Positions 570 to 58,318 of a stretch of DNA of 64,000 nucleotides are shown piece after piece. Both the position numbers and the translations under genes were made by a program. Origin of the DNA: Halorientalis sp. IM1011 (GTDB lineage Archaea; Halobacteriota; Halobacteria; Halobacteriales; Haloarculaceae); contig NZ_CP019067.1 in NCBI RefSeq assembly GCF_001989615.1, positions 992,001 to 1,056,000 of the forward strand, given 5' to 3'. Below the pieces are notes generated by a model. It worked only from the letters and a program-made list of their open reading frames with translations, made no database searches and was not told the DNA's origin. Positions within the stretch are counted from its first letter, which is position 1; every line of letters starts with the position of its first letter.

Positions 570-1397
570 TCACTGTTTCACCGCCTGCGTGATGTTGTAA
601 ACCGCACACATCAGGACGAGTTCTCGGAATTCACCGTACCAAGTTCGCGCACGCACGGCGTCGCCGAGCGTGCGCTTGATCGTCGAGAAGACGGTTTCAC
701 ACATCGCTCGTTGACGGTATCGAGGCCCATCGATCCGCGCGTTGTGCGCGTGATCGATGGGCCGGAACTCACGATGCTTGATTAGCGGTCTTACGCCTTC
801 TTCGCGGAGTTTTTCGCGCAAATCCATCCAGTCATAGCCCTTGTCGGCAGCGAGGCTGGCAAGGTCGCCCGCGTTGCGGAGGGCGACCTGCCAGCCGAGC
901 TGTGTGTCGTGGCGTTTCTCAGTCGTACAGTGAACATCCAGAATTGCTTGAGTTTCTGTATCGACGAGAGCAGTTGTTTTGAGCGTTTGAACACGGTAAT
1001 TCGTCCGACGGCAGTAGTGCTTGCTCGCGTTTTCGCGGTCGAAGAACGTCGCGTCGATCGCGGCGTGACCGGATGGGTCGTGCAGCTGCGCCGAGAGGCG
1101 CAGCAGCACTCGCCAGAGTGCTGTCTTGATCCTATCAAACCACTTCACTAACGTCGAATGATGCGGGAGATCGGCCGCTTTGAGGTCGATCTCCCCGAGA
1201 ATATGTGGCATCTCACTCAGCAGATCCAACGCTTCTCGGTAGGACTTCTCCAAGTAAACCCGCAGACAATGCAGCGATACGACGGCATAATCGGCGAAGC
1301 CGCCACCCCCTTCGGGGGCGGCGACTTCGCCTCGCCCACCAACAGCATTTTTAGCTAACTGAACGACTTTGCTTGTGAAGCGGGAGATCTTAGACAT
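570..1397 (-). CDS. IS5-family DDE transposase (275 aa)
   Basis: Cut-and-paste transposase that recognises the inverted repeats of its own element. The DDE catalytic triad is visible as AIDATFF (first Asp), AADKGYD (second Asp) and CETVFS (Glu), the last followed by a basic KRTLG stretch as usual in this family. The length is normal for the haloarchaeal IS5 group and there is no frameshift or premature stop. The ATG at 1395-1397 gives the N-terminus MSKISRFTSKVVQLAKNAV, which is the form I remember for this transposase group. The early coding region contains a long GC-rich dyad (1294-1330) that could limit translation. Confidence 0.93.
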   Translation of the reverse strand: MSKISRFTSKVVQLAKNAVGGRGEVAAPEGGGGFADYAVVSLHCLRVYLEKSYREALDLLSEMPHILGEIDLKAADLPHHSTLVKWFDRIKTALWRVLLRLSAQLHDPSGHAAIDATFFDRENASKHYCRRTNYRVQTLKTTALVDTETQAILDVHCTTEKRHDTQLGWQVALRNAGDLASLAADKGYDWMDLREKLREEGVRPLIKHREFRPIDHAHNARIDGPRYRQRAMCETVFSTIKRTLGDAVRARTWYGEFRELVLMCAVYNITQAVKQ

Positions 1398-1483: not shown

Positions 1484-1834
1484 CAATATCTCGCTACAGG
1501 ACCCATTCTAGAACTCTATCTATCGATACGGAGCAAATTCAAACATTTATAATTCAGATACTTTTGGCGTACGAGATTCACACCCTCTATTCAGCATACC
1601 ATCTTTGACAGACACCAGGTATCTGTCTGAGGAGTCCCCTTATTCTGCCATACTGAGTGATTGTGGATTCAGGTTGACTCGGTTCCATAATACCATGGCT
1701 CCACCAATTCTCAGAATAGTCACCTCCAGTCCTAACCGTCTCGGGTACGTTCTCGATTGATTGCAGTCGCGTGGTGGTTTGTTTGTGGCCCCTGAGGGGT
1801 GCGGGGCCACACGCAGTGGTCGCGCTGATTCGAG
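1484..1834. other. AT-rich spacer upstream of the TFB gene
   Basis: No gene is convincing here. It contains AT-rich promoter-like DNA (around 1545-1562), a dyad CAGACA-N9-TGTCTG (1609-1629) that could be a protein-binding site, and the 9-bp-stem hairpin at 1784-1811 listed separately. The reverse-strand ORFs in this region look like shadows. Confidence 0.6.
1784..1811 (+). promoter_or_regulatory. 5' hairpin element, copy 1 (before TFB gene)
   Basis: Perfect 9-bp inverted repeat TGTGGCCCC (1784-1792) / GGGGCCACA (1803-1811) around a 10-nt loop containing GAGGGGT. It is preceded by GTT and followed by CGCAG. It ends 23 nt before the TFB start codon. A second hairpin with the same loop, flanks and distance to the start precedes the SWIM gene (3000-3020). 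It could be a cis-acting mRNA structure or an operator. Confidence 0.65.
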
Positions 1835-2767
1835 ATGGCAACGAGAGACATCTCCACGGACGGATTCGACGAGGAAACGACTGGCGAACTATCGACCACG
1901 GACTGTCCGGAGTGTCCCGGCACACTCGTCACGGACGGGGGCGAAACGCGCTGTGAATCCTGTGGGTTGGTGATCGAGGCGGCGCGCCTCGACCGGCGCG
2001 GACCTCGGGTGTTCGACGAGACAGATTCGAACCGCAAACGGACGGGGAGTCCACTGACGAACGCGCGCCATGATCGCGGACTGTCGACGTGCATCGGCCA
2101 GCGGCAGGACGGGAAGGGTAACGACCTGTCTTCACAGAAGCGACGCCAGCTCGCACGGCTGCGACGGGAACACACACGGGCGAAGTGGCGCTCGAAAGCC
2201 GAACGCAACCTCGGACACGGGTGTACGGAGATCGCCCGAATGGTCTCCGCGCTCGGGTTCGATCGAGGCCTTCGCGAACAGGCAGCGACCCTCTTCCGGA
2301 CGGCCCAGGACGCGGACCTCCTCAGGGGTCGGTCCATCGAGGCGATCGCTGCTGGCTGTGTGTATGCCGCCTGTCGGTGCTCCGAACACCCCTGTACTGT
2401 CGCCGAGGTTACTACCGTTGCTCGCGTTGCGGAGGATCGCATCCGGAACGCCTACCTGGTGCTGAACCGGGAACTCGATCTCCCGGTCCCCCCTCAGGAA
2501 CCAGTGGAGTTCATCCCGAAACTGGCCTCTGCGGTCGATGCTGCACCCGCAGTCGAACGGACCGCACGCGAACTGGCCACTCAGGCAGTCGAGACAGGGC
2601 TGGCGAGTGGACGGAATCCGGCCGGCTTTGCGGCGGCGTGCATCGAAGTCGCCGCGGCCGAGCACGGAACTGAAGTGCTGCAATTCGAGCTGGCTGCAGC
2701 TGCAGACGTCTGCCCGGTAACGGTCAGAACCCAGCGCGATGCGCTGCTCGCCGAGGAGTGGGTGTGA
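1835..2767 (+). CDS. tfb: Transcription initiation factor TFB (310 aa)
   Basis: Archaeal TFIIB homologue that bridges TBP-bound TATA/BRE DNA and RNA polymerase. It has an N-terminal zinc ribbon (C24, C27, C40, C43), then the B-finger segment (SPLTNARHDRGLST) and two cyclin-like repeats (about 110-205 and 210-305). The length is normal. It diverges from the second TFB (57389-58318), for example in the cysteine-rich first cyclin repeat (AACRCSEHPC). It sits in the accessory region next to an IS and opens a probable unit with the zinc-ribbon and SWIM genes, so it may be a mobile, specialised TFB directing alternative promoters. The ATG at 1835 follows the hairpin; the sequence shows no strong ribosome binding site. 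Confidence 0.93.
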   Translation: MATRDISTDGFDEETTGELSTTDCPECPGTLVTDGGETRCESCGLVIEAARLDRRGPRVFDETDSNRKRTGSPLTNARHDRGLSTCIGQRQDGKGNDLSSQKRRQLARLRREHTRAKWRSKAERNLGHGCTEIARMVSALGFDRGLREQAATLFRTAQDADLLRGRSIEAIAAGCVYAACRCSEHPCTVAEVTTVARVAEDRIRNAYLVLNRELDLPVPPQEPVEFIPKLASAVDAAPAVERTARELATQAVETGLASGRNPAGFAAACIEVAAAEHGTEVLQFELAAAADVCPVTVRTQRDALLAEEWV

Positions 2768-2772
2768 TCAGG

Positions 2773-2928
2773 ATGAGTCTCCGTGGATTCGTCACTAAGG
2801 TACTGCCGTGGACGGCTGGCCGCCAGACCATCCACGAGTGTCGACACTGTGGCACGGTCGTCGATCCGGAGACGGTGGTCTGTCCGACCTGCGACCGGCA
2901 GGCCATCGCTCGCTACGAACTCCCGTGA
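2773..2928 (+). CDS. 51-aa zinc-ribbon protein
   Basis: Short gene starting 5 bp after the TFB stop. ATG at 2773, TGA at 2926-2928. It has a basic, hydrophobic N-terminus and a zinc ribbon CRHC...CPTC (C23, C26, C37, C40). Tight linkage to tfb suggests co-transcription. Similar short zinc ribbons often act as nucleic-acid or protein adaptors. The function is unknown and the call rests on the motif, the codon use and the spacing. Confidence 0.65.
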   Translation: MSLRGFVTKVLPWTAGRQTIHECRHCGTVVDPETVVCPTCDRQAIARYELP

Positions 2929-2999
2929 TCGGCTGCCCTGTTCGGTGAGGGAGCTGTACCATCCCCGTACGGCCATCGCGGTCCTCCAACAGTTTGTGA

Positions 3000-3020
3000 T
3001 GCGCCCGAGGGGTGGGCGCA
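3000..3020 (+). promoter_or_regulatory. 5' hairpin element, copy 2 (before SWIM gene)
   Basis: Perfect 7-bp inverted repeat TGCGCCC (3000-3006) / GGGCGCA (3014-3020) with loop GAGGGGT. It is preceded by GTTTGTGA and followed by CACACGCGAG, and ends 22 nt before the SWIM start codon. Loop, flanks and distance match the hairpin before tfb although the stem bases differ. That compensatory change suggests conserved structure. Confidence 0.65.
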
Positions 3021-3042
3021 CACACGCGAGCGCCCGGATTGG

Positions 3043-3471
3043 ATGAATCCACTCGAACAACTGGAGTTCACGAGCCGTGTCGCAAAGCGTGCCCAATACG
3101 AAGCCTTCGAGTTCGAACTGACACCGGCGGGCGTCAGTGTTCGAAACTGTAGCCACGCGAACCCCGCGGACCACGAATACCTGGTCACGATTTCCGAGGG
3201 CCTTCCGACAGCCTGTACGTGCCCCGCTGATGCTCGGTTCGACGGTGCCTGCAAACATCGACTTGCGATCGCGATCCGTGAGCCACTCCTCGATGCAGCC
3301 CAGGCGCAGCAGATGGCAGCTGACGGTGGGACAGCCACCTCTCCATCGGACGATGAGACTGGTGTAACTGGTACCGACACGACCGACGATGCCTGTGACT
3401 GTTCGGATCTCCGCGACGATTTTCCCTGCTGGGAGTGTGTCCGTACCGGCCGTCGCTCGCTTCCAGACTAA
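3043..3471 (+). CDS. SWIM zinc-finger protein (142 aa)
   Basis: It contains a SWIM zinc finger, CTCPADARFDGACKH (about residues 58-72; pattern CxC-xn-CxH), a small DNA- or protein-binding module known from transposases, SNF2 helicases and MEK kinases. The finger is preceded by a beta-rich part and followed by an acidic, low-complexity linker and a second cysteine cluster (CDCSDLRDDFPCWEC). There is no signal peptide. Third gene of the tfb / zinc-ribbon / SWIM set. Stand-alone SWIM proteins of this size are common on haloarchaeal plasmids and islands; their role is not established. Confidence 0.85.
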   Translation: MNPLEQLEFTSRVAKRAQYEAFEFELTPAGVSVRNCSHANPADHEYLVTISEGLPTACTCPADARFDGACKHRLAIAIREPLLDAAQAQQMAADGGTATSPSDDETGVTGTDTTDDACDCSDLRDDFPCWECVRTGRRSLPD

Positions 3472-7545: not shown

Positions 7546-8820
7546 ATGCCTTCCTTAGGAGACGTTATTGTAGGAGCACTGCAAGAACTTCTACGTACCT
7601 TATTTAACCCAATTACAGATATAATCGAGAACTATGGGTCGGAGTTAATCAAAGTAGTCATCGGAACACCCCATCCCAACCAGGTATTCAGTGCCCCGAC
7701 TAACGGGCCGTGGCCAGCGATATACGAGTACTACTGGGATTCGGTCGTTCCGCTCTCGCTGTTTCTCTGGGCAGCCGCTATCGGGCTGATTATCTTCTTC
7801 GAGTCGACGAGCCACCTCTTCAGCAGCTATCACCGGACCAAACTGAAAAAGCGGGCCTTCTCTGGACTGCTGGGCATTCTCTCGTGGTGGTGGATAGCCG
7901 CGCTCTCACTGCGGTTCATGAGTGCGCTGGCCGAGTTCATCGTGCCGCAGCTGTCGGAGGTCACACTCTTCGAGACGCTGTCGTTCTCGGGGATGGGTGT
8001 CCTCGGCACGGTGATGGCGCTCATGACTGATTTCACACTCTTCGTGCTGATCGCGTTGCTGTACCTGATGCGGGAAGTCGTGCTCTACCTGTTCGTTCTC
8101 CTCATGCCGATCCTGATCGTCCTGTGGGTTCCCGGCGTCGGCCCCCTGTCGCTGGTATCGAAGTTCAGCCGTCGGCTGGCGGGATTTTACTTCCCGTTCC
8201 TGTTCATGACGATTCCGGTCGCGATTCTGTTCCGGCTCGGAGGCCTCCTCGGGTCGAGCTTCGATGCGTCTATGGGTGGATTCGGCTCGTGGCTGATCGC
8301 ACTGGTCATCCCGATTATCGCTCTGATCGCACCACTCGTTCTGTTCTGGCAGGCTGGGGCGCTGTTCTTCGTCGCCGACCGTGCGTCCCAACATGTCTCT
8401 CGAAACCGAGCACGGGCACGGGTTACGAAAACCCGCGACGCGGGACAGACCGTCCAGCACGGCCGACGGAATTTCGCTCGCGGTGTTCGCGGTGAGCCAG
8501 CGGTCACGCAGGGAGGACAGTCCCTGTTACCCTCGAACGATTCGCGAGCCCACGCGGCTGGAAAGGCGGTCCGTCGGCCGGCCGAGCGGATGCGATCCGC
8601 CGTCGACCGTACAGGCGGTGGTGGGGGAGGCGGTAGTGGATCCAGCGGTGACAGCACAGCGAGTTCGACGACCGAGACTCGAACAGATCGATCGCGTACC
8701 GGGAGTGGATCGAGCAGTGAGACCGATCGAAACGAGACCTTCGACGCGCTCCGGGATCGGGGTAGCAACCGATCCGGAGGGCGAGACCAGGACGACGATC
8801 GCCCCTACTACATCGACTGA
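7546..8820 (+). CDS. VirB6/TrbL-like polytopic channel protein (424 aa)
   Basis: About six membrane segments (roughly residues 66-85, 105-125, 150-172, 176-196, 212-232, 247-276), then a 145-residue hydrophilic, basic then Gly/Ser-rich tail. A polytopic core with a long soluble C-terminal tail is the VirB6/TrbL arrangement. It directly follows the lipoprotein stop and is 2 bp before the VirB4 N-domain gene. The N-terminal 130 nt share the AT-rich composition of the preceding gene end. It probably forms the inner-membrane pore of the transfer apparatus. Assigned by topology and gene order. Confidence 0.65.
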   Translation: MPSLGDVIVGALQELLRTLFNPITDIIENYGSELIKVVIGTPHPNQVFSAPTNGPWPAIYEYYWDSVVPLSLFLWAAAIGLIIFFESTSHLFSSYHRTKLKKRAFSGLLGILSWWWIAALSLRFMSALAEFIVPQLSEVTLFETLSFSGMGVLGTVMALMTDFTLFVLIALLYLMREVVLYLFVLLMPILIVLWVPGVGPLSLVSKFSRRLAGFYFPFLFMTIPVAILFRLGGLLGSSFDASMGGFGSWLIALVIPIIALIAPLVLFWQAGALFFVADRASQHVSRNRARARVTKTRDAGQTVQHGRRNFARGVRGEPAVTQGGQSLLPSNDSRAHAAGKAVRRPAERMRSAVDRTGGGGGGGSGSSGDSTASSTTETRTDRSRTGSGSSSETDRNETFDALRDRGSNRSGGRDQDDDRPYYID

Positions 8821-8822
8821 CC

Positions 8823-9857
8823 ATGACACACGACCGATCAGCCGATCACGATCCATCGAAACGCATTCCGAAATCACTGAACAACGACACCAAACTCTAT
8901 GGGCGCTACACGCTCCAGGACGTCGCGGTCGCCCTCTTCCCGGGCGTCCTCGTCATCCTTACGACGCAAGTGATCCTGCCGCCGTCACTCTCGGTCTGGG
9001 GGTACGGGGTCCAGACACTGACGCTCCCGATCGCGGGTATTGCCATCCTGATCGGTGGCATCTTCGTGACGCTGACACCGAAATACACCGATAGTCTCGG
9101 CTGGATCGAGAATCTCGTCCAGTTCTACCGGAGTGCCCGCAATCTGGAGCACGAGGATGCAGCCTCTTACACACAGGTCGAATGCATCCACCCGGATCGG
9201 GGTGCCATCGAACGAACTGACGGAGCACTCGTGGGACTCGTGCAGGTCGACCCACCGAACATGGCGCTGGCGACAGACGCTGAGTGGGCAAAGCGCGCCG
9301 ATAGCTTCCAGGACTTCCTGAACACCGTCGTCGAATTCCCGATCCAGATCCATTCGACGACACGGGAGTTCCCGGCCGAGGAGTACCTCTCTCACTACGA
9401 GTCACGCCTGTGCGATCAGGACGTCAAAGAGAACCCACAGCTGCAGGCGCTGATCGAGAACTACGTCGCGTGGTACGAGCGCGATCTCGAACAACGACAG
9501 ATGACGATCCGTGACCACTACGTCGTCGTCGCTGTCAGGCCCTCGGAGGTCCAGTTCGAGCAGGAGAGTATCGCCCAGCAGTTGACGGGTATTCCAGTCA
9601 TCGGGACGTTCGTTCGTGTCTGGCTGGCACCGGGCCGCGACCAGGAACGGGAAGCGATGTTCGAGGCACTGGAGACACGCCGCCGTCAGATCGAGGGCGG
9701 CCTTCGGGAGATCGAGGGGTGCTCTGCCCGGCAAGTCCCGGTCACAGACGCCGTGGAGTTGCTGGCCTCCTTCTGGGCCGGTGAAGCAGTGGCATACGGA
9801 ACGACGGACGACGTCGTTGCACACCAGCCGCTTCTCGGAGGTGGTACGGATGTCTAA
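8823..9857 (+). CDS. PrgI/VirB3-like membrane helices fused to VirB4 N-terminal domain (344 aa)
   Basis: Residues 25-90 carry two membrane helices (33-52, 62-84) with the YGRYTLQDV lead-in typical of PrgI/VirB3-like subunits. The remaining 250 residues are soluble and resemble the N-terminal, non-catalytic half of VirB4/TraC (CagE/TrbE-type). No Walker motif is present. Its 3' end overlaps the ATPase gene by 8 nt, so the two halves of VirB4 are translationally coupled but separate. Fusion of VirB3 with VirB4 is known in bacteria; here the fusion joins VirB3 only to the N half. Confidence 0.65.
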   Translation: MTHDRSADHDPSKRIPKSLNNDTKLYGRYTLQDVAVALFPGVLVILTTQVILPPSLSVWGYGVQTLTLPIAGIAILIGGIFVTLTPKYTDSLGWIENLVQFYRSARNLEHEDAASYTQVECIHPDRGAIERTDGALVGLVQVDPPNMALATDAEWAKRADSFQDFLNTVVEFPIQIHSTTREFPAEEYLSHYESRLCDQDVKENPQLQALIENYVAWYERDLEQRQMTIRDHYVVVAVRPSEVQFEQESIAQQLTGIPVIGTFVRVWLAPGRDQEREAMFEALETRRRQIEGGLREIEGCSARQVPVTDAVELLASFWAGEAVAYGTTDDVVAHQPLLGGGTDV

Positions 9858-11907
9858 CTCGACTCACGAGGAACCTGATACCGAACAGACGACAGAGGAA
9901 CCCGTTTCAGAACCAGCCGACAGCGCTGAGAGCGCAACTTCCGAGGCGACCGGGGAGACTGACGTGGGAGCTGACTCCGAAGCACCCATCGAGAATGGAC
10001 AGGAGTCGACTGCCGACGATACGGTCGAGAACACAGACGAGTCGGGAACGACCGTCTCCTACGACTCGGACGACACCACTCTGTCGACGCCCGCGTCGAA
10101 ACACGGGACGATCGTCGGCCCGTCGGCCCTCGAGAAAGAGCCTGGATTCGTCAGGACGGGGCAGGACTGGACCCAGACCTTCTGGGTCGGTGAGTTCCCG
10201 GATGCGCCGATGAACGGACTCTTCGAGAAACTCTACTCGACGTCGGAAACCCGGACCACCGACATTTCGCTCCACCTCGATCCCCGGGACACGACGAAGA
10301 CGCTCGACTCGCTGGAGAACCAACTCGAAGATCTCGAAGCCGAATACGAATACCTCGCGGAGAAACAGCGTGCGAGCGCCCGCGGCGTCCAGAAGGACCT
10401 CGAAGACCACCGGGAACTCTACGACGTCCTTCGGAACACGCCAATGCGGGCCTTCGACGTCTCGATGTATCTCACCGCTCGGGGCGATCAACAGGAGAGC
10501 CTCGACAGCAAGGTGGTCAGACAGACTGCCCGGCAGGCACCGGCGAACCTGACGCCAGTGACACCCCGCTGGTCACAGGACGATGCCCTCGTCTCGACCA
10601 GCCCGATCGGCGTCGACAAACTGAACGAATCGATGGACACCCGGACGCCGATGCTCGCCGGGGCGCTCGGGGCGATGTTCCCCTTCGTTTCCGGTGCGTT
10701 CGCCGAGCACGGCATCGAGTATGGGACCTACGCGATCAACGAGAGCCCGCTCATCCTGGATCGATTCAACCGACAGACGGGCTACTGTATGATGGTTATC
10801 GGCCAGCTCGGAGCCGGGAAGTCCTTCTCAACGAAACTCCAGTTGCTCCGACGGGCGATGTTCGACCCCGACACGATGTTGATCATGCTCGACCCGATGG
10901 AAGGGTTCGCCGGCGTCAACGAGGCGCTCGGCGGCGAGCGGATCACCGTCGGCGGAACGCGGGGACTGAACCCCCTGGACATCCAGGAGACCCCATCCGA
11001 GGTCCGGCAACAGGTCGCGGATCTGGATCCCTGGGCCGAGCAGATCAGCTGGGTGCTCACGTTCTTCGAGACGTTCTTTGCGAACGTCGCCAACAACCCG
11101 CTCGACAACCGGAAGCAGACACTCCGACGGGCGGTGCAGGAAGCCTACGAACGACAGGGGATCACGCGCGATCCGGCAACCCACGGCAACGAATCGCCGA
11201 CGGTTCGGGATGTCATCGCAGTCCTCGAGGACATGCTCGATCAGCCCGCGGAGTTCGGGTATCCAACACCGGGCGAACAGGAGCGCGTGCAGGCCGACGT
11301 CCAATCGCTACTGACGGATCTGCGGCCATCGTTCCGTCCCGATGGCGACCTCGCCAACCTCGCGGAGCAGACGGAGTTCGATCTCGATTCGAAGGTCGTC
11401 TATCTGGACCTCCATCAGGAGGAGGGCGTCCGCGGCCGGACGGAGACGAGTCTGATGATGTCGGTGTTGTTCAATGCCGTCTACGAGCGAGCCAAACAGA
11501 CGGACAAGCGCGTCCTGTTCGTCGTCGACGAGGCCCACTACCTGATGAACGACACGACGTCACTGGAATTTCTGGAGATGGCGGTCAGACACAGCCGGCA
11601 CTACGACCTCTCGCTCCATTTCATCACCCAGACCGGCGGTGAGTTCACACTGACGCCGGAGGCACAGACGATCGCGAATCTCTGTTCGATGACGCTGATT
11701 CACCGGGTGAACGAGGAAGCCGAGAAACTGGCGGAGTGGTTTGGACTGAGCGAGCGCGAAGTGAACTGGGTTCGGACAGCGAAGGCCGGGAACGATGACG
11801 ATGGCTTCTCGGAGGCCTTGCTGGGGATCGACGAGGAAGGGTGGTTCCCGCTGCGGGTGCGGGCGAGTGACTTTGAATCGGATGTCTTGGACAGTTCAGG
11901 TTTCTGA
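9850..11907 (+). CDS. VirB4-type conjugation ATPase (685 aa)
   Basis: Energy source of the type IV secretion apparatus. Walker A GQLGAGKS at residues 318-325 and Walker B VVDEAH at 558-563 are intact, with QTGG (sensor-like) further on; the FtsK/HerA-like core is about 300-640. The first 80 residues are an acidic E/T/S-rich tail. ATG at 9850 was chosen because it overlaps the previous stop by 8 nt and starts the acidic tail; the frame stays open upstream but there encodes shadow sequence. It is the last gene of the cluster. No relaxase or VirD4 coupling protein lies nearby; these may be beyond the left edge. Confidence 0.88.
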   Translation: MSNSTHEEPDTEQTTEEPVSEPADSAESATSEATGETDVGADSEAPIENGQESTADDTVENTDESGTTVSYDSDDTTLSTPASKHGTIVGPSALEKEPGFVRTGQDWTQTFWVGEFPDAPMNGLFEKLYSTSETRTTDISLHLDPRDTTKTLDSLENQLEDLEAEYEYLAEKQRASARGVQKDLEDHRELYDVLRNTPMRAFDVSMYLTARGDQQESLDSKVVRQTARQAPANLTPVTPRWSQDDALVSTSPIGVDKLNESMDTRTPMLAGALGAMFPFVSGAFAEHGIEYGTYAINESPLILDRFNRQTGYCMMVIGQLGAGKSFSTKLQLLRRAMFDPDTMLIMLDPMEGFAGVNEALGGERITVGGTRGLNPLDIQETPSEVRQQVADLDPWAEQISWVLTFFETFFANVANNPLDNRKQTLRRAVQEAYERQGITRDPATHGNESPTVRDVIAVLEDMLDQPAEFGYPTPGEQERVQADVQSLLTDLRPSFRPDGDLANLAEQTEFDLDSKVVYLDLHQEEGVRGRTETSLMMSVLFNAVYERAKQTDKRVLFVVDEAHYLMNDTTSLEFLEMAVRHSRHYDLSLHFITQTGGEFTLTPEAQTIANLCSMTLIHRVNEEAEKLAEWFGLSEREVNWVRTAKAGNDDDGFSEALLGIDEEGWFPLRVRASDFESDVLDSSGF

Positions 11908-12352: not shown

Positions 12353-13156
12353 ATGAAAAGAAGGAATTTCATTCAGGCAACCGGTGGAACAGCTTTGCTC
12401 CCGGTCGCACTGTCTGGCATAGCTACAGCTAGCACTCCAGAAAGTGTGGATGTCGGGAAGAACATCATCGCCGAACTTAGCCTAGATCACTCTAGAACTG
12501 ACGAAAGTGCTGAGGCAGACCTGTTTAATCACCCCCCGATCATTACTGAACAGGGTGTTTATCTTCCTGATTATGGGGATCTGGATGTAAATATAGATGA
12601 TCAGAACATAATGTTGTTCTCTGAAGGGGGTGCTGTATCTCAACTGGGTAATCAGGGAATAGTGCCAGCGATCGAGAAACACAGCCAAATCAGAATACCA
12701 AAATCACCAGGTAATGCCCCAACTCACAGTATTCCAGAAGTCGCGGTCGAGAAAAGAGGCGAAGATCTAGAATTGTTGACTCCCAATGGCCGTACTATGA
12801 TACCAAAGGGTTCCAAAAAAGAGGTTCCTTTCTCTTCCCTTGACCACACACTGAACATTAAAAATCTCGGTGAAAAGAAAATATGGGGTGATTCTCAACG
12901 AAGATTATTCCCATTAATTAGAGAATATGATGAAATGTTTAAAAGAGTACAACAAAGGGCAAATGAAAAAGGGGTTTCAGTTGGTGAGGTATTGTCAACG
13001 GACACAATTGAACGGTCAGTGATTAGAATCCCTGAAATTAGGGCCATTGCTATCGAGGAGACTAAAAAACAGTATGAGATGACAAACGTGGTCTCTACTG
13101 AGAAAAATGTCAAAACAGCATCTGCCACTGGCAGTGTCGGAGGGGGTGAACGATAA
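12353..13156 (+). CDS. Tat-exported protein of AT-rich cassette (267 aa)
   Basis: The ATG at 12353 gives MKRRNFIQATGG, a clean twin-arginine signal followed by a hydrophobic stretch and an A-T-A-S type cleavage region near residue 30; a TTG at 12344 would add three residues. The mature part (about 235 aa) has a basic, helical C-terminal half and a flexible SATGSVGGG end. No cysteine-lipobox, so it should be a soluble secreted protein. The coding sequence is markedly AT-rich compared with neighbours, indicating transfer from outside. Its TAA stop overlaps the ATG of the metzincin gene (TAATG), so the two are translationally coupled. Family not recognised. Confidence 0.75.
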   Translation: MKRRNFIQATGGTALLPVALSGIATASTPESVDVGKNIIAELSLDHSRTDESAEADLFNHPPIITEQGVYLPDYGDLDVNIDDQNIMLFSEGGAVSQLGNQGIVPAIEKHSQIRIPKSPGNAPTHSIPEVAVEKRGEDLELLTPNGRTMIPKGSKKEVPFSSLDHTLNIKNLGEKKIWGDSQRRLFPLIREYDEMFKRVQQRANEKGVSVGEVLSTDTIERSVIRIPEIRAIAIEETKKQYEMTNVVSTEKNVKTASATGSVGGGER

Positions 13157-50958: not shown

Positions 50959-53900
50959 ATGACACGCAGAGATCACACCGTTTCGATCGCAGAGGACGAC
51001 AGAGCACGGATTCCGTTCGCGCTGATCGGCGTCGTCGTGCTGATCAGCAGCGTCGCCGTCGTCGGGACGCTCCAGACCCGCCCGGAGCCCCAGCCCGACA
51101 CCGACCCGTCGCTGGCGATGGATCGGGCGGTCTCGACCTCCCAGACGGCGATCAAAGACGCCGTCAGGACGGCCATGAAGGACGCGGCGGCCGAACCGCT
51201 GACGACGACCGCGGACACGCCGGTCGGGAACGCCATCGACGACAGCGGCGGTGACACGTTCGAGGAGTACGTGAAGTTGCGGGTGTACCTCGAAACGGCA
51301 GAGGCGCTCCGGACCTCCGGCCAGCGGGTGGATACGGGGATGCGGACCGACCTCTCCCTGCCGCCGGTGGAGTACACCGAGTCGAGCATCGAGGACGCCA
51401 TCGACCGGGTCGACCTGACTGTGGGCCACGAGTCCGGGTCGCTAGACGCCGGGAAGGTCACCGCCGAGATCAGCGGGATCGACGTGGCCGTCCGCGAGAA
51501 CGGCTCGGCGGTCGCCACCGACACCCGGACGATCTCCGTGACGGTGAGTTCGACGACGTTCGCGCTGGACGAGAAGGTCACCGAGTACGAGAATCGGCTG
51601 AATCGCGGTTTCTTCGAGGCTAATAGCCTGATGGACGGGTTTGGGAGGAAATTCGCTGCACGCCTGTATCCGATGGCCTACGCGAAGGCGTACTACGAGC
51701 GGGTGTTTGGTTCGCCATTGCCCCCCTCTCCCAGTGGATCCACGGGGGCTGACGTGTTCGAGCGGATCAACAAGAACAAACACTCGGAAGTGCTGGCCAA
51801 CGACGCCATCTTCGGCATTCAAAAGCGGACCTTCGATGCGACCGATCCCTACGCTGCCCGGACGATGAAAGGCCAATGGGCCTGTATGGGTGCGAAGGTC
51901 GTCGAGGATCTGGGTGGGGGTCGAGCATCCGACAAAATCTCGGGCAGTGTGTCCGGTATTTCCGGACCACTCTCGGCCAGCACGTTCTGTCAGGGTGCCA
52001 AGGCGATGTTCGGTGACGCCAACGGGAACCTCCCCGAAATTCCGACGCCAGGGGAGTTCGTCGACCGCCGGATTAACGCCCTATTCGGGCCATCAACAGG
52101 CGTTTCTACCGAACACGAAATCGCGATCGACCGTTTCGCAGAAGCGGCCTACGAGGACATGACCGGCGGTGGGATGAGCGGTGACAGATGGCTGGCAAAA
52201 CCCGACATCATCGACGAGGTGCAGGGCAAAGACAAGATGCCCGACATCGAGGAAGAGTTGCCCGAGGACATGGGGGACGGGCGTATCGAGACCGCGATCG
52301 ACCGCACCTACGAGGTCAAATCGTGGGCGGAGACGACCGACGAGAGTTCGAGTATCTCCATCCCGAGCGTGAGCAGTCCGACCGACGACGACCTCAGCGG
52401 TTGTAGCGCCGACAGTACCGACTACTCGATCGACGGCGTCGACAGCGTCAGTGCCACGCGGAACGACGTCTGGGACACCGACGCCGACGGCAGTACGAAG
52501 CCGATCGTTCGGTTCGATGTCGACGCCGACGTGACGGTCGAGACGTCGGTCGACTTCTCCTGTAGCTCTCACGACGAGAAAAACGACAGCAATGCACCGT
52601 TCTCCGGGTCCGGGTCCGACACGTCCTCGGGATCGGTCAGCTTCGACGTCGAGATCGACGGGAAACACAGCACGGGGACAGGTGTGCTCCGCAATGGCGT
52701 CAACGACGATTACGGTTCAGAGAGTAACTTCAAAGCGGCGCTGGACAAGGCTGTCTCGGCCCACATCGCGGACGACGGAGAGAGTTCGCTCGAAGGTGAC
52801 GTGGGCGGTGCCGCCGGGACCGATCTCGGTTCCAGTACCTCGGCATCGGAGGTCGAGGACGAAGTGGTCGGCGCGGTCAGCCTCGATGGCTCACAGAAGA
52901 CACACGACCTCGGTGCGCCCAGCGGTCTCGAAGGGTCGATCGAGAGCGACATCGAGAACTTCCGGAGCGTCGTCAAATCGGAGGTCAGTAACGCGAGTTT
53001 CTCACGGCTCGGCATGGCGACGGGGAAAGGCCCCTTCGAGCAACTCAAGGGTAACATCGACCAGCGGGCGCTGGTCCATCACGACCGGACGCCGACGAAC
53101 GATTACACAAGCGCACGGCGGAAGGCGAAAATCGAGGCACGACGGATCTACGTCAACCGGATGCGCCACTGGATCGACGAGATCAACAGCACCCGGAACG
53201 AGGCCCGAAACAAGGCCGACAACGAGATCACCGACGCACTCGGCGGTGCGATGGACGGGCTCTCCGGGGGGATCGATGTTCTCAACAAGGGCCTCGGCTT
53301 CGCACAGGAAGCGCTCAGCGGTGATACGTCACTGTCGATGGCCAATCGTGGAACTGTCGAAGAGACGCCGCTAACCGAGGATATCACGTACTCGGTGCAC
53401 GGGTCGCCGACCTACCTCACGAAGTCGCCGCTGACGCGGGCGACGGTGCCGGCGGTGCGGCCCGGGTACGCGAACGTGACGGAACCGATGGACACGATGC
53501 ACTCGTCGATGGCGGTCCGGAACCACGACCTCATCGCGTATCCCGGGCTGCCGATCATCCCGTGGCCGACGTTCTGGTACCTGTCGGTGGACGCCTGGCA
53601 GGTCAACGTGCAGGGTGAGTACGCACGGTTCGCAGTGAGTGCGAACAAGGGTGATCCGTCCAACACTGGCGGGACGACGTACGTACGCCAAGCGCAACCG
53701 ATCACGGTCGAGATCGCCGGACGCAACCGCAGGGCCGGGACGGTCGATCCGATCACCTTCGAGAGTAACACGATGGTGATCATTCCCGTGCCCGGTGGGA
53801 CGGTCATGCCCGGCAAAGGGAATATGGGCGTCGGCGACCGGATCAGAGCGAGCGGCGTCGTCAAGGAGAAATGCTCGAAGTCGTGGGACTACACTGGCCC

Positions 53901-55014
53901 AGGCTTCCGGCCGAGCAAGGCGCATCAGGGCGATGATTGCACCAGAGGCGGGTCGATAACCCTCGATAGCGGGTGGCTGCCGGGCGATAGCGACGCGGAG
54001 TTCGAGTACGACAGCGACGGCGTCAGTATGACGGCCGGAGCGGTCGAGTTCAACTCCGACGGTGACATCGACTACGAGGGTGAAGAGGCAGGCTGTGACG
54101 CCGAGGATCTGTACGAGGAACTGAACGACCAGCCCGAGAACCGGTACGACGATGCAGGAGATATCGACGAGAAGGTCTGGCGAACGTACTGCCGACTCCG
54201 ACTGGACCCGTACAAAACACAGTACGCGGAATTCCTCGGGAGTGGCGACGATCAGGTCCACGAGAGTTGGGAAGACGTGATCGAAACCGAGACGATCCGG
54301 CTCGACCACGTCATCGAGACGCTCAGCTACGTCGTCGACGATCAGGGTGGACCACTCGACGAAAAGCACGACATCCAAGAGTTCATGACGGCCTACGAGG
54401 CCAACGACGATCACACTGCCCCGTGGAGCGCGAGTAGTGACGACGACGGCTTCTACGCGGTTCCTGCCCACGAAGAGCCCGGGATCGCGTTCGACTTCGA
54501 GACCGAAAATGCGGATGCGTTCTACCGAGTCTACGACAATGACTCAGACTACGGTGCCAGTGGTAGCTGGGTCGCGAGATACCACGCCGTCGCCGGGAAA
54601 GACGAACACGGAATCATCAACAGCTTCGGGCTCTGGGACAACAGGACGGTCGATATCGATACCTACGACCCAGACAGATACGGCTGGGGACGGTACGACT
54701 GCCTGGCGAAGTTCGTCGTGCCGTCGACTGAAGAGTACGAACTCCGCGTCAGTACGCTCGGTGGCTTCGACGCCCGTCTGTACGAGCCTCTGATCAACGA
54801 GCGAGTCCGTGAGATCAACCCTGATGGGGAACCGCGGCTCGACGGTGGGATCAAACAGTTCGAGATTCGGGAGAATCTGGCCGAAATCGACTCGGACCAG
54901 TGGGTTCCACTCGGGAAGATCGAAGCGTTCGCCGACGACCCCGAGGCACTGGAAGACACGTTCGAGGCCGCAGATCAGGGTGACAACCTCGCTTCGGAAA
55001 GCCCCTGTGGCTGA
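50959..55014 (+). CDS. Very large exported protein of secretion cluster (1351 aa)
   Basis: N-terminal helix (PFALIGVVVLISSVAVVGTLQ, about 20-40) behind a short polar leader, then over 1300 residues outside the membrane: an acidic, Ser/Asp-rich middle (about 470-650) and a C-terminal part rich in Tyr and Asp. Scattered cysteine pairs (WACMG, FCQG, SGCSAD, EAGCDAED) suggest disulfides. No catalytic motif recognised. By position it is the tip or adhesive subunit, or the largest secreted product, of the Tad-like system. Last gene of the cluster. Confidence 0.75.
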   Translation: MTRRDHTVSIAEDDRARIPFALIGVVVLISSVAVVGTLQTRPEPQPDTDPSLAMDRAVSTSQTAIKDAVRTAMKDAAAEPLTTTADTPVGNAIDDSGGDTFEEYVKLRVYLETAEALRTSGQRVDTGMRTDLSLPPVEYTESSIEDAIDRVDLTVGHESGSLDAGKVTAEISGIDVAVRENGSAVATDTRTISVTVSSTTFALDEKVTEYENRLNRGFFEANSLMDGFGRKFAARLYPMAYAKAYYERVFGSPLPPSPSGSTGADVFERINKNKHSEVLANDAIFGIQKRTFDATDPYAARTMKGQWACMGAKVVEDLGGGRASDKISGSVSGISGPLSASTFCQGAKAMFGDANGNLPEIPTPGEFVDRRINALFGPSTGVSTEHEIAIDRFAEAAYEDMTGGGMSGDRWLAKPDIIDEVQGKDKMPDIEEELPEDMGDGRIETAIDRTYEVKSWAETTDESSSISIPSVSSPTDDDLSGCSADSTDYSIDGVDSVSATRNDVWDTDADGSTKPIVRFDVDADVTVETSVDFSCSSHDEKNDSNAPFSGSGSDTSSGSVSFDVEIDGKHSTGTGVLRNGVNDDYGSESNFKAALDKAVSAHIADDGESSLEGDVGGAAGTDLGSSTSASEVEDEVVGAVSLDGSQKTHDLGAPSGLEGSIESDIENFRSVVKSEVSNASFSRLGMATGKGPFEQLKGNIDQRALVHHDRTPTNDYTSARRKAKIEARRIYVNRMRHWIDEINSTRNEARNKADNEITDALGGAMDGLSGGIDVLNKGLGFAQEALSGDTSLSMANRGTVEETPLTEDITYSVHGSPTYLTKSPLTRATVPAVRPGYANVTEPMDTMHSSMAVRNHDLIAYPGLPIIPWPTFWYLSVDAWQVNVQGEYARFAVSANKGDPSNTGGTTYVRQAQPITVEIAGRNRRAGTVDPITFESNTMVIIPVPGGTVMPGKGNMGVGDRIRASGVVKEKCSKSWDYTGPGFRPSKAHQGDDCTRGGSITLDSGWLPGDSDAEFEYDSDGVSMTAGAVEFNSDGDIDYEGEEAGCDAEDLYEELNDQPENRYDDAGDIDEKVWRTYCRLRLDPYKTQYAEFLGSGDDQVHESWEDVIETETIRLDHVIETLSYVVDDQGGPLDEKHDIQEFMTAYEANDDHTAPWSASSDDDGFYAVPAHEEPGIAFDFETENADAFYRVYDNDSDYGASGSWVARYHAVAGKDEHGIINSFGLWDNRTVDIDTYDPDRYGWGRYDCLAKFVVPSTEEYELRVSTLGGFDARLYEPLINERVREINPDGEPRLDGGIKQFEIRENLAEIDSDQWVPLGKIEAFADDPEALEDTFEAADQGDNLASESPCG

Positions 55015-57388: not shown

Positions 57389-58318
57389 ATGTCGCGATTC
57401 GGTGGATCACAAATGGGTGGTGTAAACGACGGTGTTGCCTGCACCGAGTGTGGAGGAACGGTACGACGGACAGGGACGGAAACGGTCTGTGGCGACTGCG
57501 GACTGGTGGTCGACGAGGACGCGATCGATCGGGGGCCGGAGTGGCGCTCGCTCGACGGGGAGGGTGACGAACGGCGAACGGGTGCGCCGCTGACGCGGGC
57601 CCGTCACGACAAGGGGCTGTCGACCGAGATCGGTTACGGGACTGGATCGGAGGTCTCGGGCCGGCGACAGCGCCAGCTCGTCCGGATGCGCCGCCAGCAC
57701 AACCGGGCGCGGCTCTCCTCGAAACGGGAACGCAACCGGCTGTACGCCTTCACCGAAATCCGGCGGATCGTGTCGGTACTGGGGTTGCCGACGACGATCC
57801 GCGAGCAGGCCTGTTCGCTGTTCGAGTCGGCCCAGTCCGAGGATCTGCTCTGTGGCCGGTCGCTGGAAGGGTTCGCGGCGGCGGGCGTGTACGCGACCTG
57901 CCGAACCAACTCGATCGCCCGGACGATGGACGAGATCGTCGACGACGCCCGCGCCGATCGGAACGAACTCAAGGCCGCCTACGACGCCCTGAACCGCGAA
58001 CTCGGCCTCCCGGTGGGCCCGATCGATCCGACCGACTACCTCCCCCGGTACGCCTCCGAACTCGGAGTGGAAGCCGACGTCGAGAGTCGGGCGCGGGAGT
58101 ACGCCGTCTTGCTCGTCGAGACCGGCCGCATGGGCGGGAAGAACCCGAGCGGCGTCGCGGCCGCCTGTCTCTACAAGGCGGCCTACGACCACGGTGTCGA
58201 GGTGACTCAGACCCGGGCAGCCGACCTCGCGGACGTGTCCCGGATGACGATCCGCTCGACGGTCACCGACCTGAAAACCCTCCGACAGGCCGAGGAGGTC
58301 GACCGCTCCGTCGAGTAG
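57389..58318 (+). CDS. tfb: Transcription initiation factor TFB (309 aa)
   Basis: Core-chromosome TFB. Zinc ribbon C18, C21, C34, C37; B-finger APLTRARHDKGLSTEIG; cyclin repeats about 110-205 and 210-305 (GRSLEGFAAAGVYATCR; GGKNPSGVAAACLYKAA). Same length and layout as the island TFB at 1835-2767 but with more usual residues in the first cyclin repeat. Single gene with an AT-rich promoter. Haloarchaea use multiple TFBs for global expression programmes. Confidence 0.95.
   Translation: MSRFGGSQMGGVNDGVACTECGGTVRRTGTETVCGDCGLVVDEDAIDRGPEWRSLDGEGDERRTGAPLTRARHDKGLSTEIGYGTGSEVSGRRQRQLVRMRRQHNRARLSSKRERNRLYAFTEIRRIVSVLGLPTTIREQACSLFESAQSEDLLCGRSLEGFAAAGVYATCRTNSIARTMDEIVDDARADRNELKAAYDALNRELGLPVGPIDPTDYLPRYASELGVEADVESRAREYAVLLVETGRMGGKNPSGVAAACLYKAAYDHGVEVTQTRAADLADVSRMTIRSTVTDLKTLRQAEEVDRSVE

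Follow-up and report, generated by a model that had tools for sequence, protein, structure and literature searches.

A leader element with two mutually exclusive helices precedes a recurring set of plasmid genes in Halobacteria

Genes for TFB-like, ArdC-like, SWIM zinc-finger, DUF6735, DUF6166 and DUF6610 proteins in Halobacteria carry a common leader element of ~55-85 nt, in which one arm can pair either with an upstream arm (helix P1) or with a segment just before the start codon (helix P2). The element itself, its distribution, the complementarity in P1 and P2, the overlap of the two helices and the set of genes served are shown computationally. Our preferred reading, which we consider better supported than not, is that of a bistable cis-regulatory leader RNA coordinating an "establishment-like" plasmid regulon.

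Two hairpins in the window and copies elsewhere in the genome

The window is a stretch of 64,000 nucleotides from Halorientalis sp. IM1011. An initial annotation, made from the sequence alone, had claimed two matching hairpins at 1784-1811 and 3000-3020, before the TFB and SWIM genes. This claim held: the coordinates, the stems of 9 and 7 bp, the GTTTGTG and CACACGC flanks and the spacing of 22-23 nt are all confirmed (Table 1), with 23 nt between the first hairpin and the ATG at 1835 and 22 nt between the second and the ATG at 3043. Beyond a bulged A2999, the SWIM-leader stem continues outward for four more pairs (2995-2998 with 3021-3024). Counting hairpins with a loop containing GAGGGGT and at least 7 Watson-Crick pairs, we found two on the plus strand of the window and none on the minus strand, against an expectation of 0.03 per window from 200 dinucleotide shuffles. 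The 3.78 Mb genome matches GTTTGTG..GAGGGGT..CACACGC only at these two sites, and the reversed control nowhere; a looser pattern finds more copies. Against the covariance model R1, described below, P1 of the TFB leader scores 58.3 bits (E 2.6e-15), the R1 seed having included this copy, and P1 of the SWIM leader scores 16.8 bits. A leader element was also looked for 5' of the small zinc-ribbon ORF, and none was found.

Table 1. Coordinates of leader features and genes in the window
Feature	Positions	Strand	Remarks
DDE transposase	570-1397	-	
T-rich tract (U-tract)	1778-1784	+	directly 5' of TFB-leader hairpin
TFB-leader hairpin P1	1784-1811	+	9 bp; arms TGTGGCCCC (1784-1792) and GGGGCCACA (1803-1811), loop TGAGGGGTGC (1793-1802)
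Possible mini-hairpin beside P2, TFB leader	1788-1800	+	GCCCC-TGA-GGGGT, 1788-1792/1796-1800; predicted fold
Alternative helix P2, TFB leader	1801-1825	+	1801-1803/1823-1825 and 1805-1810/1816-1821; P1 3' arm in common
TFB-like gene	1835-2767	+	310 aa; TFIIB repeats and zinc ribbon
Small zinc-ribbon ORF	2773-2928	+	51 aa; weak zinc-ribbon matches below cut-offs
Short T tract	2993-2995	+	5' of SWIM-leader hairpin
SWIM-leader hairpin P1	2995-3024	+	core of 7 bp; arms TGCGCCC (3000-3006) and GGGCGCA (3014-3020), loop GAGGGGT (3007-3013)
Alternative helix P2, SWIM leader	3014-3035	+	GGGCGC (3014-3019)/GCGCCC (3030-3035); sequence and class-level support
SWIM zinc-finger gene	3043-3471	+	142 aa; PF04434
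TrbL/VirB6-like gene	7546-8820		
Probable VirB4-like ATPase	9616-11907		
1351-aa protein	50959-55014		DUF7286 match
Second TFB gene	57389-58318		47% identical; without leader

Pattern and model searches find about a dozen copies of the element in the genome. Three chromosomal modules have the gene order DUF6735, ArdC-like, TFB, SWIM, with a leader before each gene. The last two genes (TFB and SWIM) of the module near C1:987207-995468 (plus strand) fall in the window; the second module occupies 1171819-1179963 on the minus strand of C1, starting near C1:1179922; and in the third (C1:2263009-2271770, plus strand) the first element is followed by an ArdC-like ORF that is truncated, and we saw no DUF6735 gene. 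One additional TFB gene with a leader lies on contig C2 (C2:175217-176196). The stems vary among the genome copies yet pair, as in GTGCCCC/GGGGCAC before the SWIM gene at C1:2271336. In named records, the nearest relatives of the SWIM protein in the window are those of Halorientalis marina and H. persicus, with 85% and 70% identity.

The DDE transposase is inserted between the module's ArdC-like gene, which lies upstream of the window, and the TFB gene. The TrbL/VirB6-like and probable VirB4-like genes follow the module, which suggests an integrated conjugative element. The second TFB gene of the window has an AT-rich, promoter-like upstream region in place of the leader and offers a natural contrast.

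Distribution of the element and genes carrying it

First alignments made with plain MAFFT put the stems out of register, hence the use of a loop-length-matched seed: R1 is a covariance model of nine copies of equal loop length. At a loose threshold R1 matches 113 of 142 family genomes, and in 94 regions it gives 189 matches at E<=0.05, of which 150 were used to build a second model, R2. At E<=0.01, R2 detects the element in 234 of 391 Halobacteria genomes (roughly 60%) and in 64 of 86 genera, often with 5-16 copies per genome, where a scoring limit makes the top figure at least 16. The strongest matches are mostly on plasmid-sized contigs. Outside Halobacteria, a phylum-wide sample yields two weak single matches (E ~3-4e-4), about chance level. 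A virus-borne element was considered and rejected, since the exact core is present in only 2 of 2.9 million viral contigs and one element searched against phage records gave no match. A protein search of viral contigs found no SWIM relative.

The element belongs to no Rfam family and was previously unlisted there, as shown for Rfam 15 in the loci searched: 85 kb of element-rich loci contain no match at or above the gathering cut-offs, and the stretch in the window gives only a chance-level sR43 match. No description of the element was found in the literature searched, which did not cover subscription papers.

Among copies confirmed by a start codon, the downstream families are ArdC-like (39), TFB-like (37), SWIM (18), DUF6166 (17) and DUF6735 (12), and the smaller ones include DUF7389, DUF6610 and an HNH-repeat protein. 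The ArdC-like family has an M78 peptidase domain and a Pfam ArdcN match just under the cut-off. On the Halorientalis marina plasmid NZ_CP095489 (L217), 12 matches precede successive same-strand genes within ~15 kb, serving TFB, a 126-aa protein, DUF6735, DUF6166, DUF6610 and ArdC-like genes, and all six of its GGGTG-loop hairpins with a stem of at least 5 lie 7-51 nt 5' of an annotated start. Five named plasmid regions yield 30 matches at E<=0.25, all on a single strand within each module, and 26 of them are directly before an annotated same-strand start; the other four lie before an unannotated DUF6610-like ORF, over a probably misplaced SWIM start, before an IS gene and inside an IS gene. 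Raw hairpin counts by loop word were not informative in the five named loci. One ArdC-like gene is preceded by a tandem duplicate of the leader (81 bp; L229:1544-1666 and L230:3751-3873), which may be an assembly artefact in view of the N at its junction.

Two mutually exclusive helices and rival readings of the element

Covariation in P1 was measured on A3, an alignment of 150 rows. Because A3 was fitted to the P1 model it carries some bias toward P1, which is addressed by slid and shuffled controls and by an independent permutation test. The results show that 82.5% of the P1 cells are paired, compared with 67.4% after shuffling, and that changes on both sides number 229 compared with 108. 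The covariation score is 0.352, versus 0.114 +/- 0.011 for shuffled and at most 0.111 for slid versions, and columns 16/46 pair as G-C 87 times and as C-G 37 times. The element, judged from 93 non-redundant leaders, runs in the order T tract, short variable stem, CCCC, Y, GA(G/C), GGGTGC and GGGGC, with T at 74-96% across the four consecutive positions of the tract. Within the loop, GGGTG is invariant and GA mostly conserved, with G or C usually separating the two. GGGTG is kept even in divergent copies whose arms are not CCCC/GGGG, so that pairing alone does not explain it, and from this persistence we infer that GGGTG is a recognition loop.

The 3' arm of P1, together with the last loop bases, can also pair with the segment just before the start codon (TGCGGGGC... 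with ...GCCTCGCG), forming P2. We compared the pairing of each leader with itself to its pairing with the segments of other leaders in a permutation test. For 39 non-redundant leaders, z is -7.9 for P1 and -9.9 for P2, and the control pairings a:d, a:b (arm-loop) and b:d (loop-d) give -0.1 to 0.8, with no leader-specific complementarity. A replicate with 20 leaders, mostly from other families, gives -4.1 for P1, -6.6 for P2 and -1.5 to 0.1 for the controls. By this measure the support for P2 is at least equal to that for P1, with the caveat that shared ancestry within gene families may add to both signals despite de-duplication. The mini-hairpin between the 5' arm and the loop, which is possible beside P2, has no covariation support of its own in the same test (z -0.1). 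Because one arm is common to both helices, P1 and P2 are mutually exclusive. Folding predictions favour the P2 state in 51 of 55 leaders and P1 in one, with mean predicted energies of -24.4 kcal/mol for the P2 state and -16.0 for P1. A divergent leader on NZ_CP095489, before the CDS at 13088, has a = GGGCC, c = GGCCC and d = CGGGCC; the arm sequences have changed places, yet both helices persist, as does GATGGGTG in the loop. The distance from the loop anchor to the start codon has a median of 39 nt (range 27-68). The element thus meets what is expected of a bistable leader, namely two exclusive helices with complementary change and a fixed orientation and start-codon distance. The two-helix structure is well supported; its transcription and its effect on expression are inferred, without transcript data.

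These results bear on the remaining claims of the initial annotation. Differing stems with complementary, covarying bases held, P1 covarying strongly across relatives; a fixed loop held in part, for GGGTG; and the absence of a known named element of this shape is consistent with the Rfam result. It had looked to a covariance-model search for support in the form of many copies before SWIM, zinc-ribbon or TFB genes with covarying stems, and the search returned these. Its suggestion of a conserved RNA structure or a dyad site coordinating the cassette is supported, and RNA is favoured over a DNA dyad on three grounds: stem sequences change freely without loss of pairing, orientation and start-codon distance are constant, and a third segment covaries with the 3' arm. 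It contained neither P2 nor the ArdC-like, DUF6735, DUF6166 and DUF6610 genes, nor the plasmid and conjugative link.

A DNA reading could still be proposed, in which the T tract serves as a haloarchaeal TATA box of the TTWT type and a plasmid regulator, or the plasmid's own TFB, uses the hairpin as its operator. The T tract does lie at a fixed place before the hairpin and fits the TTWT consensus reported in PMC4983044, and TFBs are among the genes served. However, there is no CGAAA-like BRE and the bases just upstream are G/C-rich; a start site ~25 nt downstream would land within arm c and so account for neither P1 nor the greater part of P2; the stem sequence is free to vary with pairing kept, unlike a DNA site read by a protein; and in some cases the element starts right at the upstream gene's stop codon. 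We regard this reading as unlikely, though it is not closed. A fixed upstream promoter was rejected, there being no TATA enrichment at a fixed distance.

Another possibility is an intercistronic element for RNA processing or stability, in which the U tract is cut or bound (aCPSF1, Lsm), the hairpin shields the new 5' end and P2 is a mere spacer helix. In its favour, 71 of 89 leaders have the U tract immediately ahead of a stable hairpin, and copies lie between closely packed same-strand genes, some from the previous stop codon (L217:10817). Against it, the element also precedes genes without a close co-directional upstream gene (window 1776), and the covariation with d in P2, which a 5' protector does not need, is the strongest signal. 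This explanation, too, appears improbable.

A leader-peptide attenuator or a terminator/antiterminator pair would have the classical layout of two exclusive hairpins with covariation support. However, the reading frames are open in 57, 63 and 37 of 89 leaders, none consistently, and a T run of at least 4 follows the hairpins in just 1 of 89, so the U tract directly after the alternative hairpin that such a pair requires is missing. A conserved leader peptide was rejected, as no reading frame is conserved through the leader. Without a terminator-like T run or a conserved leader peptide, transcription attenuation is very unlikely.

The last alternative is a single-stranded DNA hairpin promoter like Frpo/ssi of F-type plasmids, where incoming ssDNA folds and is transcribed at once for establishment proteins. 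Frpo promoters sit before anti-defence genes in bacteria (PMC11541004). The genes here resemble a leading-region set (an ArdC-like anti-restriction domain protein, TFB), occur on plasmids and adjoin conjugation genes such as the TrbL/VirB6-like gene. However, the sole TATA-like feature, the T tract, is predicted to be largely unpaired and neither TATA nor BRE lies in the stems, so that the hairpin does not make promoter elements double-stranded as Frpo/ssi does; what an archaeal ssDNA promoter would require is unknown. Two exclusive helices are also unnecessary for a promoter hairpin. Wobble pairs in P2 comprise 93 G-U and 11 A-C, compared with 211 and 53 in mismatched leaders (Fisher p 0.03), a bias that weakly favours the sense RNA strand. 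We therefore consider an ssDNA promoter unlikely as well.

Proposed mechanism and comparison with known systems

In the bistable-leader model that we prefer, the leader would consist of a U-rich tract followed by arm a, the loop carrying GA(G/C)GGGUGC, and two further arms, c and d, the latter immediately 5' of the start codon. Arm c would pair with a to form P1, which arises first during transcription and displays the conserved loop, or with d to form P2, which is usually the stabler; with this order of formation and stability the leader would be a natural kinetic switch. An unidentified factor or condition may recognise the P1 loop and hold P1, so that the region before the start codon stays open; otherwise P2 would take over, and its 3' arm, lying ~10-25 nt before the start codon, would hinder ribosome loading. 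That held P1 keeps the start region open and P2 lowers translation is a likely inference, in which the ON state is not shown. It is likewise inferred that the element is transcribed, that control acts on translation and that a factor exists. A common leader on the TFB, SWIM, ArdC-like, DUF6735, DUF6166 and DUF6610 genes would allow joint switching, as in an establishment-type programme.

Two findings speak against simple masking of the ribosome site: only 14 of 89 leaders have a strong Shine-Dalgarno-like word, and the P2 helix of the long ArdC-class leaders stops ~25 nt short of the start codon, which means that direct masking cannot operate in every leader. In Hfx. volcanii, 72% of transcripts are leaderless and structured leaders have been judged untypical for haloarchaea (PMC4983044). 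We set aside the loop as a Shine-Dalgarno mimic (GGGUG can pair with CACCU), since an A hardly ever replaces its first G and the start codon lies too far away. No co-occurring RNA-binding partner was identified. The label "establishment" is borrowed by analogy from bacterial plasmid systems on the basis of gene content, and the order of transfer is not shown.

EGeRS1 and Frpo come closest in function; both are from bacteria, and neither fits by structure. EGeRS1 of the pLS20-family conjugative plasmids (PMC8708921) likewise recurs as a structured region upstream of ardC and further establishment operons, and its mechanism is also unknown; but EGeRS1, from Bacillus, has 400-600 bp and many inverted repeats, features that the haloarchaeal element, with its short length and two exclusive covarying helices, does not have. 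Frpo/ssi hairpins also precede leading-region anti-defence genes of conjugative plasmids, but the Frpo stem holds promoter elements and the haloarchaeal stem holds none. Archaeal ribosomal-protein leaders, such as the S15 leader (PMC7247131), are cis-regulatory leader RNAs in Halobacteria too, but they precede ribosomal genes, whereas the new element precedes plasmid genes. Riboswitches and attenuators similarly use one arm for two alternative helices before a start codon, but the new element has no large conserved aptamer, ligand-linked pathway or terminator U tract after the second helix. There is no ligand candidate for a riboswitch, and the genes served have no common metabolite pathway.

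Few cis-regulatory RNAs are known in archaea, and the transcripts of the model haloarchaeon are mostly leaderless. The balance of evidence leans toward RNA-level control of an entire plasmid gene programme by the leader, with the regulatory output and trigger inferred. A bolder reading, to which we give slightly less than equal credence, is a class-wide haloarchaeal plasmid RNA regulon whose GGGUG loop would be read by an unknown plasmid- or host-encoded factor that switches a complete establishment programme (its own TFB, ArdC-like, SWIM and DUF6735/6166/6610). To our knowledge no earlier RNA-based establishment control is known in archaea, and this reading, if true, would be the first. The leader marks a recurring plasmid gene set and so provides a handle for finding archaeal establishment and anti-defence genes by leader alone, and it makes the timing of these genes by archaeal plasmids testable with simple reporter mutants.

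On NZ_CP095489 we also observed, at L217:14313 and 14588, very divergent hairpins (TCGCCTC/GAGGCGA and GAGCCTC/GAGGCTC) before two small genes, suggesting that the family is wider than R2 detects.
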